Below are positions 28,423-62,063 of a stretch of 64,000 nucleotides of DNA, one piece after another; the stretch's first letter is position 1, and each line of letters starts with the position of its first letter. This DNA comes from Agelas oroides (lineage: Eukaryota; Porifera; Demospongiae; Agelasida; Agelasidae). The position numbers and the translations under genes were made by a program. The notes beneath the pieces are model-generated. The model was given only the letters and a program-made list of their open reading frames with translations. It did not search any database and was not told the origin of the DNA. The stretch spans positions 7,406,636 to 7,470,635 of the forward strand of contig OX422183.1 in assembly GCA_949130485.1 (NCBI GenBank), read 5' to 3'.

Positions 28423-28549
28423 CACACACACACACACACATACACACACACACACACACACACACACACACACACACACACACACACACACACACACACA
28501 CACACACACACACACACACACACACACACACACACACACACACACACAG
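28423..28549. repeat. (CA)n microsatellite ending at a splice acceptor
   Basis: About 63 CA dinucleotides are interrupted once by TA near 28441. The tract runs into cacag, the acceptor of the first zinc-finger exon, so it occupies the place of the pyrimidine tract. Confidence 0.95.
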
Positions 28550-28678
28550 CGCTTCTCAGGCAAATATCCCCCAGAAACCAAGTGCCCGATCCCTGGATGT
28601 AATGGCCAGGGTAACGTGGATCCCAGACGTTTCAAACATTATTCAGTCTTTAAATGTCCCATTGCTGTGGGCACTAAG
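28550..28678 (+). CDS. C2HC (MYT1/NZF-type) zinc-finger exon 1
   Basis: The exon encodes 43 codons, phase 0 at both ends: acceptor cacag, donor actaag/gtagct. It contains KCPIPGCNGQGNVDPRRFKH followed by YSVFKCPIA. The Cys-x4-Cys ... His ... Cys spacing and the CPxPxCxGxG signature are those of the zf-C2HC fold of MYT1, L3MBTL and KAT7/HBO1. Such fingers bind DNA or support chromatin factors. A paralogous exon of identical length lies 491 bases downstream, and both could be spliced in tandem without changing frame. The rest of the gene is not certain; exons at 35963-37012 are phase-compatible candidates. Confidence 0.75.
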
Positions 28679-59100: not shown

Positions 59101-62063
59101 GTGTGTTTGTTTTTTCAAGCCCTTCCCACTGTCCAGTTTTTGATAGCTTATAGTATGCAAAAATGGAGGTGGGGGAGTTGGGAAGGCCTGGGAGGATTTA
59201 ATCACATGAGTGACATCAATGGTAGAAGGGGGGGGGAGGGGGGGGGGGGAGGGGTGCAAACATACTGGCCTTCTCCAAAGTGTCCAAGCACTGGAGTTCT
59301 GAAAGTTTGGAAAACTTACCTCAGAATGAGGAACACAAACCCAAAATGTGTTTTTTCAATACATCAGCTGGAGTGACTGGGGCACTTTTCGACCCCTGCC
59401 AGACCTCATCAGGGACATATTTCAGCCAATACCAGACCTCGATCATCAGCCACGTTTGGGGTTAACGGGAGATTGAGACCACTAGACCAGAGCATATGTT
59501 TGAGACCACTATGTGTTCTGTTTCTGTAGGGGATGTACAAGTTCAAGTCAGGTGCCCGCTACACTGGGGAGTACGTTGAGAACAAGAAACACGGCCAGGG
59601 GCTGTTCAACTTTCCTGATGGATCTCAGTATGATGGTCAGTCAGTTCAGCATGGATACTGTAATCTCCCTATTACAAAATGGCGAAGCAGAACTTCTGGG
59701 GAAGATTTAAAATTTATAAAGGCTTTATTTCCTTAATAAGGGGAGTGGGCGGATGACATGAGTTCAATTCATTAGCTCTTACTGGCCTTGTTCCAAGATC
59801 TTCCCACTGTCCAATTTTTGTATGGATATAAATTGGCAAAGTAGAACTCCTAAGCAAAGGCTTTTTCTCCTTAATAAAGGAGAGTGGGCAGATGATGTGA
59901 GGAATGGGTTTGGCACCTACACCTATGCCAATGGGGACACGTACGAGGGGGAGTGGAGCAACAACCTGAGGCACGGGCAGGGGACGTACACTTACGCAGA
60001 CTCTGGAGTGAAGGTTAGATACAGCAGTCTCATTCCCAGGCTCCCACGCACCCAGCTTTGTCTATACTATGGAAAGGGTGTCTGGGAATGAAGCTAAAGA
60101 CTAGACACGTTGGTGAAGGATTAGATAAATAATGTTGATTTTATGCATTTGGCAATACCTTATTTTGCTGTGTCACTGTGTTTAGATGTAAGATATCATG
60201 TTGATGCCTGCATGTTGCTTAATCTTAGCACACATGCACACACACGCACACACGCACATGCCTGCATGCACATGTGCACATACACACGCATGCACACACA
60301 CACACACATGCACACACACACACATAACACACACACATGCACACACACATGTATGCACACATGCACACACACATGAATGCACACATGCACACACACACAT
60401 ACACACACACACATGCACGACACACACACACACACATGCACACACACACACATGAATGCACACATGCACACACACATGCACGCACACACACACACACACA
60501 CACACACATGCACACACACACACACACACAATACACACACTCACACACACACACAGTATGTAGGCACCTGGGTAAACGGGAGGAGGGAAGGAGTGGGAGA
60601 ACTGGTTTTTGCCAGCTACAAATACAAGGGAAACTTCACTGGTGACCAGGTATACCCCTAATACAAATGAACACTTCAGAGCATAGGTGGAGGTGCCGGG
60701 GGAGGGAACACAAGGGACACATGCCCCGCCCCCTCCCCAACATGTACTACATCTACTAACACGATTGACGATTGATAGGTATAGAAGGTTACCAACTTGA
60801 AGTCATAAACACTTTTAACCAACATTTCGACTAAATGCTTTCACAATGTACACTCATCTAAGTTAGCCATCTGGGCAGACGCCTTACAACAAGGCAACTA
60901 AGCTACCCTGTGAAAGCACCATAGCCATTCAGCCTCTCCCTGCAAACCATCCAGACTGGTTTAGACTCTTATGTTAGCCTCGTTCCCAGACTCCGCCCAG
61001 CTTTCCGTCGCTTTCAGTATGGAAAACTGGGCGGGGCCTGGGAAGAGGCTACCCTTATGTGATAACAGACACTAGCGTCATTCCCAATGTCCTGCCCAGC
61101 TTTTCATCACTTAACAGACACTACACTACTGGTATAAATATGCAGCAGAGACGACTGAGTAGAACAGATGAAATTTTGCAGTTGTCTCCCCCAAGATGTT
61201 GATGATGGCTGTATGCCAGGCCACTTGTACTGTGTGCATACACTGCAGTCAATGGCTGCCCACTTATTTACATGTATGTGCATGCATGTACGCATGATCA
61301 ACTATAGAGGGGGTGGAGGGGGAATGTTTATATAGTCCATACCTTGTGTAATGTGTTTTTCTGTGGTTTTACCATTAGCCCCATGGACAGGGACAGTACA
61401 CATTTGACATTGGATGTCGGCAGACTGGTGATTACGTCATTGCTAAAACCGTGAGTCAGCATGCCTCACCTGCAGATTGTCCTTGTATCAAGAGTAGCAT
61501 AAGTAGTAGCGTCATCATTGAGTAATCAAGCACCACAGTCTGTTCTAGGACTAGCCTTGCCTCATTCCCAGGCTTTTGTCACATAATATGTGTTCTCACT
61601 CCTCTACATCATGTAGCTATATCACATACGTTATGTACTTATGTACTTAGTGCATTATATACAAAAGTTGTAATGAGAACAAGACTGTGAGTACATAGCC
61701 TTTTCACTCAGACCCTAGCTTTTGTACTGTATGTGAAAGTTCCCCACTGACTAAAGCCCGAGCAGAAGGTCTGGGTAGCCTCGTTCCCAGTCCCCGCCCA
61801 GCTTTCACTTACAGGGAACAGGGCTAAGGTCTGGTATTGGCACAAATATATAATTATCCTTCTGGATTAGAAGGCTGAGGCATAATACAATCATACGTGC
61901 ACACACACACACACACACACACACACACACACGCACGCACGCACGCACACAGACACGTGCACACACACACACACACACACCACAGATGAACGAAGAAGAA
62001 GAGAGTGAGTTGACGACCACCATCAGATGGAGAGGAGCACAAACGTCTGCCACTGCACACTAG
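56123..62063 (+). CDS. RSPH1: Radial spoke head protein 1 (MORN repeats), seven exons
   Basis: RSPH1 is part of the radial spoke head of motile 9+2 axonemes. Exons are 56123-56170, 56463-56576, 59530-59635, 59880-60013, 60557-60649, 61379-61450 and 61986-62063; every junction is in phase and gives 214 residues. The start [16 protein letters not shown] resembles human MSDLGSEE. MORN repeats follow: [60 protein letters not shown]; the [18 protein letters not shown] and [20 protein letters not shown] units; then [24 protein letters not shown] and a short acidic end ([12 protein letters not shown]). Human RSPH1 has 309 residues; the long acidic C-terminal tail is absent, so the protein keeps little beyond the MORN core. 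Two acceptors sit directly behind CA repeats. It is divergent from UROS with an RFX X-box between. Confidence 0.95.
56306..56431. repeat. (GT)n microsatellite 31 bases before an RSPH1 acceptor
   Basis: About 63 uninterrupted GT units in the first RSPH1 intron are followed by tattttcctcttacag and exon 2. The transcript carries (UG)n here, unlike the (CA)n of the later introns. Confidence 0.95.
56590..56745. repeat. Tandem duplication of about 65 bp, two units
   Basis: Two copies of cttttcatgacctccaagaa followed by cataggggggggctagg and agctttagccaagaca lie in RSPH1 intron 2. A third partial start lies at 56737. Confidence 0.85.
58648..59340. repeat. Three tandem units of 211-257 bp in RSPH1 intron 2
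   Basis: Units start at about 58648, 58859 and 59116 with caagcccttcccactgtcca, and contain ggaaggcctgggagga and cagagtgtccaggcactgga. The first part of each is a MITE-derived foldback (tttttgatagctta with gcaaaaatgga). The second and third units are nearly identical, with a G-rich interruption near 59225. Confidence 0.85.
59700..59770 (+). pseudogene. Decoy copy of the RSPH1 exon-4 acceptor and exon start
   Basis: The sequence aggctttatttccttaataa followed by ggggagtgggcggatgacatgag repeats, with changes, the acceptor and first codons of exon 4 at 59855-59905 (ctccttaataaag/gagagtgggcagatgatgtg). In this copy the frame closes soon afterwards. It is a partial local duplication within intron 3. 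Confidence 0.65.
60230..60556. repeat. Degenerate CA repeat, 330 bp, ending at an RSPH1 acceptor
   Basis: CA dinucleotides with frequent catgcacaca and gaatgcacac variants run without a break to acacag, the acceptor of exon 5. There is no separate pyrimidine tract. Frames on both strands are artefacts. Confidence 0.95.
60975..61051. mobile_element. Mutator-like MITE in RSPH1 intron 5
   Basis: The ends are tagcctcgttcccagactcc and ggggcctgggaagaggcta, with tttcc-type inner pairing. Flanks are ctcttatgt (60966-60974) and cccttatgt (61052-61060), a 9-bp duplication with one difference. Half copies of the same family occur near 61083 and 61777. Confidence 0.82.
61898..61985. repeat. CA/CG-CA microsatellite ending at the last RSPH1 acceptor
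   Basis: (CA)n with four CACG steps in the middle runs to accacag, the acceptor of exon 7, again without a pyrimidine tract. Confidence 0.95.

Follow-up and report, generated by a model that had tools for sequence, protein, structure and literature searches.

CA-repeat tracts at 3' splice sites as a probable genome-wide class of acceptors in the sponge Agelas oroides

Results and discussion

CA microsatellites that run directly into an acceptor AG probably act as true 3' splice sites throughout the genome of A. oroides and form a class of their own, which would have originated through tolerated growth of the repeats on the sense strand. In the window, i.e. the whole 64-kb stretch of DNA analysed, CA tracts do abut acceptors, so that the observation made in a preliminary description of this DNA is real, with the corrections given below. 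CA-repeat acceptors appear, moreover, to be a feature of the genome rather than a quirk of the window, involving a couple of thousand exons.

In the whole 259-Mb genome the exact word (CA)10G was found 3115 times and the reversed word 743 times (4.19x), whereas the corresponding ratios were 1.34x for the (CA)10T control (4700 vs 3518) and 1.36x for the (CA)10A control (2375 vs 1746). Comparison of the G ratio with the two controls gives an excess of about 2100 (CA)10G sites, or about one fifth of such tract ends. Genome-wide enrichment, whose absence had been set beforehand as the refutation test of the preliminary description, is therefore present, both in this G-specific asymmetry of CA-tract ends and in the pooled exon samples described below. 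TG acceptors also exist ((TG)9CAG, 220 vs 34 for the reversed word), so CA is favoured at acceptors but not required. Tracts of pure CT are rarely found at acceptors (15 vs 4), and imperfect tracts rich in CCT were often seen on inspection by eye.

Only these whole-genome counts are independent of annotation, and they do not show exons by themselves, which leaves some room for a cause unrelated to splicing, such as a mobile element or a mutation bias generating CA tracts that end in G. However, the bias is specific to G, and in 298 kb examined, which were partly chosen for their genes (some were included for CCT genes), seven of the eight (CA)10G sites start a homology-supported exon, in several unrelated genes, as do three of the four sites in the unselected part; a non-splicing cause is accordingly highly improbable. 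The backward word, G(AC)10, does not occur in the same 298 kb.

Among exons defined by homology, a CA run of at least 10 bp was present within 100 nt on the 5' side in 6 of 41 CCT exons, 3 of 38 myosin exons and none of 40 kinesin exons (pooled, 9 of 119), with a background of 77 in 15840 overlapping random windows (0.49%); TG runs were near the start of 3 of the same 119 exons. On the donor side of the CCT exons CA runs were found in 3 of 41, so that the acceptor side is not clearly above it in this sample, and a circular-shift test at the CCT loci gave weak significance (5 observed vs 1.53 expected, P 0.021). The absence from kinesin exons may mean that the frequency varies, or that the 9 of 79 obtained with CCT and myosin was high. 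In a random 200-kb region of the same contig, 3 of 13 CA-orientation clusters lie directly at the start of a Pfam-supported exon. Another cluster ends 73 nt before an exon without a significant Pfam match, the sequence in between being CA-rich; this exon is presumably DCAF8-like. An exon finder based on coding potential (3265 training codons) yielded 0.17 bits per codon and, at its lowest threshold, 46 exons in random loci vs 26 in reversed sequence, and was dropped in favour of homology-defined exons.

Four acceptors in the window lie at the end of a (CA)n tract, as the preliminary description had stated and as reading of the tracts at zinc-finger exons 1 and 2 and at RSPH1 exons 5 and 7 bears out. 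On the forward strand, a tract at 28423-28548 followed by the acceptor CAG (28423..28549; AG-free zone of 126 nt, 99% A+C) leads into zinc-finger exon 1 (28550..28678, 129 nt, donor GT at 28679; boundaries from sequence reading), and a second tract at 28931-29168 with a CCACAG acceptor (28931..29169) leads into zinc-finger exon 2 (29170..29298), whose length and phase are the same by reading. Identity between the two exons is 90.7% over 129 nt; for a 32-nt stretch that leads up to the tract and enters it, the value is 90.6%. The exons represent a tandem duplication and are therefore counted as one event. Together they match the zf-C2HC family (PF01530, E 2e-19), and we take them to be of the MYT1 type. 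Further along the same strand, a CA-rich tract at 60230-60555 plus the acceptor CAG (60230..60556; 327 nt including the AG, with no other AG within) precedes RSPH1 exon 5 (60557..60649, YVGTWVNG..., MORN repeats, donor GT at 60650). A CA-rich tract at 61900-61984 with a CCACAG acceptor (61900..61985) and an AG-free zone of 31 nt precedes RSPH1 exon 7 (61986..62063), the last exon, which carries the stop codon.

UROS, which had been put forward as a further case, stands in part: on the reverse strand a CA-rich tract (47626..47707, TG on the forward strand) does lie upstream of the last UROS exon (47492..47614; PF02602 HEM4, E 1.5e-7; open frame), but it is near the acceptor and not abutting it, 9 nt (CCTCTACAA) separating it from the AG. 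That most long CA tracts of the window would be at these acceptors proved too strong a statement, since five of the nine CA/TG tracts of at least 18 bp are so placed. The others are a reverse-strand (CA)35 (50823..50892), which the next base, G, completes to CAG, with no recognisable exon after it and no Pfam family in the one frame examined on its 3' side, and three GT/CA or TG/CA tracts with no splice site assigned (15606..15643, 45313..45440 and 56307..56431, given without strand).

The preliminary description had also suggested that acceptors might be created by CACAG; in such a reading expanding CA repeats would have made new acceptors and shifted the starts of exons. This is contradicted where it can be tested. 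In RSPH1 the exon 5 junction (K|YVGTWV) is well established, since the alignment to the solved RSPH1 structure (PDB 7dmp, E 7e-61) has no gaps, and the CCT-beta and HSP60 exons that lie behind CA tracts likewise join their neighbours without gaps when compared with solved homologues. No residues have been inserted at any of these three junctions, which places the tracts at old exon boundaries, and the CCT-beta and HSP60 junctions in particular lower the odds of acceptor birth. What speaks for it is the zinc-finger tandem duplicate, which carries the tract and whose acceptors were positioned by sequence reading, so that the exact exon starts are not fixed by homology; on balance, birth of acceptors is extremely improbable. 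The RSPH1 exon 7 junction is weaker than that of exon 5: it is ungapped in two alignments, which cross it over a Glu-rich stretch, and in two further matches unequal query and target lengths imply gaps somewhere within. The junction as placed is thus probable rather than certain.

The tracts were also considered as coding sequence. For RSPH1 exon 5 this was rejected, since there is an in-frame stop in the tract. The zinc-finger tracts are open in the zinc-finger frame, and the acceptor-like sequences TTTTACAG or GTTTACAG are found just before the two tracts, but here too a coding role is unlikely, because with a repeat unit of 2 nt a change in length can shift the frame.

Regarding the architecture of the acceptor region, the zone free of AG extends over at least 31 nt in 21 of 23 acceptors, with the tract inside it; at zinc-finger exon 2 and at the site labelled L015, an AG is found just 10 and 5 nt, respectively, upstream of the acceptor AG. 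In 10 of 20 CA acceptors the tract starts at most 14 nt after the previous AG. This is compatible with the earlier proposal that the repeats are tolerated in place of a pyrimidine tract, and a branch point and pyrimidine tract apart from the repeat would hardly fit into so short a space, but at least 90% A+C was reached by the AG-free zone of only 4 of the 20. The interpretation offered in the preliminary description is supported in part. A displaced pyrimidine block upstream of the tracts was not supported as a general feature of CA acceptors (pyrimidine fraction 0.59 vs 0.56 at CA tracts elsewhere, P 0.28), and a pyrimidine-rich head is seen in some acceptors (L039_104, L041_HSP60a and L017).

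These features bear on two stronger readings. In one, the CA tract would be a positive recognition element, at which a CA-binding protein resembling hnRNP L recruits the U2 snRNP or replaces U2AF2, without help from a partner in the rest of the intron. The crowding of the tract against the previous AG, the four zones made almost exclusively of A and C and the large excess of (CA)10G over (TG)9CAG (3115 vs 220, although these patterns are not exact counterparts) point in this direction, as does the presence of hnRNP L/PTB family genes in the genome; the other sequence in the zone of many CA acceptors and the lack of a visible expansion of that family point away from it. This reading is possible but on the unlikely side. 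The other reading is that in some two thousand introns or more of this non-vertebrate the bare (CA)n serves as the acceptor region, the tract supplying branch-point adenosines as well as the U2AF2-type contact and being read by a CA-binding protein, again with no partner repeat; we regard it as doubtful. The odds of both are lowered by the small number of zones rich enough in A and C.

The expanded hnRNP L-like family, for which a search had been proposed, was not seen: a profile match of TIGR01649 to the genome, made exon by exon, gave 11 exon matches, none of which reached the whole-protein cut-off, with 8 of the 11 at two loci (C12:3.14-3.16 Mb and C14:8.49 Mb) and the other 3 isolated and weak.

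GT microsatellites show the counterpart of the CA asymmetry at donors. AG(GT)n is found 1085 times in the whole genome, against 490 for the reversed pattern (2.2x), indicating that GT runs begin at donors, and by reading, five of nine sense TG clusters at the CCT loci are at a donor GT (four start at the donor and one lies within 9 nt). In fish and lamprey, introns with AC repeats at the 3' boundary and GT repeats at the 5' boundary have been described (Lin et al. 2016, Genome Res 26:12, via PMC9198270 and PMC7404189). The sponge resembles these, as they are summarised in those sources, in having (AC)n near the 3' splice site and GT repeats at donors, but differs in that the two kinds of tract are not in the same introns among those read. 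Bridging of the fish type, in which a donor (GT)n pairs with the acceptor (AC)n of the same intron and U2AF2 becomes dispensable, would accommodate the GT tracts that begin at donors. However, no GT run of at least 10 nt was seen by eye at the donor of any CA-acceptor intron with a readable donor in the window and the CCT loci, and among the first 100 listed (CA)10G sites, on contig 1, AG(GT)n was found upstream on the same strand at none within 1 kb (null 0.15), at 1 within 3 kb (null 0.48) and at 2 within 5 kb (null 0.78, P 0.19), i.e. not above chance. Bridging is therefore very unlikely.

We favour instead a passive origin. CA microsatellites on the sense strand would lengthen by slippage at acceptors, whose CACAG already is a short CA repeat, and would persist since they are free of AG: if the AG is chosen by scanning, that of the exon would remain the first one past the branch region, and a tract of any length would leave a good CAG acceptor. 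The tract would replace or lengthen the pyrimidine region between the branch site and the AG. In some introns a pyrimidine- or branch-like block would be kept upstream, with the CA tract as a spacer; in the few whose AG-free zone is nearly all A and C, the tract itself would have to contain the branch point or do the work of the acceptor region. At donors, in other introns, GT microsatellites may reflect a matching process.

CA-rich and UG-rich elements near acceptors have precedents in vertebrates. In CFTR exon 9 the tract is UG. This tract, linked to TDP-43 (via PMC13174678), has been associated with exon skipping, and it shares with the present tracts the location of a dinucleotide repeat near an acceptor, the difference being UG there and CA here, where TG acceptors are the fewer (220 vs 3115). 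The element known as REPA or CaRRE1 is CA-rich, lies between the pyrimidine tract and the 3' AG, is bound by hnRNP L and regulates how a group of genes is spliced (PMC4320613). Its position directly upstream of the 3' AG is that found here, but, compared with the element as presented there, the sponge tracts are long microsatellites at conserved housekeeping-gene exons, with an upstream pyrimidine tract not statistically evident. In human eNOS, hnRNP L binds to intronic CA repeats that are variable (Hui et al. 2003, via PMC13174678), another tie between CA repeats and splicing, although as cited there this is a human case and not a genome-wide class of acceptors. The titles, abstract openings and some passages of the open-access literature searched contained no mention of CA-repeat acceptors in non-vertebrates.

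Conclusions

Of the ends of perfect CA microsatellites counted genome-wide, about one fifth appear to be splice acceptors, by which microsatellite mutation would be directly tied to splice-site architecture. Natural acceptors in which the pyrimidine tract is reduced or missing would provide test cases for AG scanning, the branch-point rule and the requirement for U2AF2. They also call for caution in gene finding and variant calling, since in such genomes variable repeats may be located exactly at the starts of exons.

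Genome-wide excess of CA tracts ending in G

Real acceptors coincide with the ends of coding-strand CA tracts more often than reversed words, A/T-ended words or random windows predict. A pattern search over both strands of all 259,295,671 bases, with each word reversed as its control, rendered 3115 copies of (CA)10G (ten exact units followed by G) against 743 reversed, whereas (CA)10T gave 4700 against 3518 and (CA)10A 2375 against 1746. Against the 1.34-fold A/T baseline, G-ended tracts exceed expectation by ca. 2116 sites, 21% of the 10190 CA-tract ends counted, and the genome-wide enrichment at acceptors that the preliminary description had anticipated is thus borne out. 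Other words were also in excess over their reversed forms, namely (TG)9CAG (220 against 34), (CT)9CAG (15 against 4) and AG(GT)n (1085 against 490, 2.2-fold).

In a 298-kb sample made up of the window, random pieces and CCT loci, (CA)10G occurred eight times and G(AC)10 not once. Exons with homology support followed seven of the eight sites (zf-C2HC, sugar transporter, phosphatase, CCT, CCT-beta and two HSP60 exons); the CCT loci had been chosen for their exons, and in the unselected part the figure is three of four. The eighth site belongs to a (CA)35 tract followed by G at 50823-50892 (minus strand), upstream of UROS, after which no exon was recognised, one following frame giving no Pfam match.

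CA acceptors in the window

Sequence reading places (CA)n directly into the acceptor CAG of the zf-C2HC exons starting at 28550 and 29170 and of RSPH1 exons 5 (60557) and 7 (61986), all on the plus strand. The direct contact reported earlier holds at all four, but the two zinc-finger exons are tandem copies (90.7% identity) with a common tract start and ca. 30 nt preceding it, and are therefore counted as one event rather than as separate cases. The CA-rich tract reported near the last UROS exon (minus strand) is likewise present, ending 9 nt from the acceptor AG. By hand count, five of the nine CA/TG tracts of at least 18 bp in the window lie at these acceptors, and Pfam confirmed the MORN repeats, zf-C2HC and HEM4 domains of the exons. 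At both zinc-finger exons (28400-28930) an acceptor-like TTTACAG stands immediately 5' of the tract, so that the upstream AG could be used too. The window also holds an unusually long, uninterrupted open frame of 1106 codons (16780-20097), which resembles an RNA polymerase second-largest subunit.

One of the two readings proposed earlier was that CACAG creates new acceptors. The exons behind CA tracts in RSPH1 (exon 5), HSP60 and CCT-beta argue against this, since they sit at old boundaries: the joined exons align without a gap to solved RSPH1 at the exon 4/5 junction, to solved HSP60 (R|LKVGLQ, E 4e-47) and to solved CCT-beta (KE|DLLNIA, E 4e-44). The RSPH1 exon 6/7 junction is also gapless in the two alignments shown, but lies within a Glu-rich stretch.

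Random pieces and conserved gene families

Twenty 10-kb pieces taken at random from the window's own contig contained 13 clusters in CA orientation, three of them adjoining exon starts. Pfam identifies the exons as those of a sugar transporter (E 5e-11), a SNARE protein (E 9e-12) and a tyrosine phosphatase (E 1e-5). A fourth stops 73 nt 5' of a seemingly DCAF8-type exon, from which CA-rich sequence separates it; this exon had no significant Pfam match.

Exons were also picked by family search, blind to repeats, and scored for a CA or TG run of at least 10 bp within 100 nt on their 5' side. CA runs were found at 6/41 CCT (PF00118), 3/38 myosin (PF00063) and 0/40 kinesin (PF00225) exons, pooled 9/119, and TG runs at 0/41, 1/38 and 2/40, pooled 3/119; the baseline for either run in overlapping random windows was 77/15840. 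On the donor side CCT exons had CA and TG runs at 3/41 each, so that, taken by themselves, the CCT acceptors do not clearly exceed the donor side. At this threshold the kinesin sample failed to replicate the result; an interrupted CA tract is present at one of its acceptors (locus L109).

Eight CCT/HSP60 loci contained 19 sense CA clusters, or 17 once two pairs, each within one tract, were merged. Read by eye, no more than 22 nt separate the cluster end from an acceptor AG in 11 of the 17, and seven of these abut it. Six of the 11 acceptors belong to Pfam-defined exons and five to exons read by eye, later supported by Pfam or PDB searches; the EAEQ exon of CCT-beta reached just E 9e-4 in Pfam, yet aligned from its first residue to solved CCT-beta. 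Of nine sense TG clusters read in the same way, four start at the donor GT of conserved exons (L039 2440-2468, reverse; L040 2135; L041 1871; L043 3125), one lies 9 nt into the intron (L040 2479) and one ends at an acceptor. A circular-shift test restricted to Pfam exons gave 5 CA tracts at acceptors against 1.53 expected (P 0.021), 2 at donors against 1.53, and 2 TG tracts at donors against 0.63 (P 0.12).

In L039 (reverse, 2440-2640) the GT-repeat donor segment is repeated within the same intron, the copies being joined at CCCAG|GTGTGTG. Two minus-strand stretches of genome contig 1 (5469535-5469760 and 5602638-5602863) are each preceded by (CA)10G and followed by AG(GT)n with the same 225-nt spacing, and are possibly duplicate exons; back-splicing could be promoted by complementary repeats on either side of an exon.

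Structure and possible origin of CA acceptors

Published accounts describe fish introns in which AC repeats at the 3' boundary, paired with GT repeats at the 5' boundary, replace U2AF2 (PMC9198270, PMC7404189). Unlike these, the CA-acceptor introns of A. oroides read by eye lack AC-GT pairing, which was not above chance among the 100 (CA)10G sites listed either, and they are therefore not classed as fish-type introns. The mammalian CaRRE1/REPA elements (PMC4320613, PMC6339879) resemble the CA acceptors in placing a CA-rich motif at the same spot. The CA acceptors are therefore classed as members of neither system.

Read back to the previous AG, the AG-free zone is at least 31 nt long at 21 of 23 CA acceptors, the exceptions being the second zinc-finger exon (10 nt) and locus L015 (5 nt). 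In the 20 that remain without these two and L053, whose zone runs past the end of its sequence, fewer than 15 nt precede the first CACACA in 10, and the zone is at least 90% A+C in four; AG-free zones built of CA speak most strongly for the tract itself being a splicing signal. The remaining acceptors have longer or mixed heads, clearly pyrimidine-rich in some, and mixed zones favour mere tolerance of the tract, as does the hnRNP L-like family, whose suggested expansion was not visible. The mean pyrimidine fraction of the 30 nt upstream was similar at acceptor tracts and other CA tracts (0.59 against 0.56, 18 each, P 0.28).

By eye, long imperfect microsatellites of CCT/CCCT type serve as the pyrimidine tract at many acceptors (loci L047, L051, L068, L073, L075, L082, L084, L116 and others), and repeat growth at acceptors is therefore not restricted to CA. 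CACAG is inherently a short repeat, at which replication slippage may start (CA)n, and (GT)n may arise likewise from the donor GT. CA tracts would survive because their growth makes no AG and leaves CAG at the exon.
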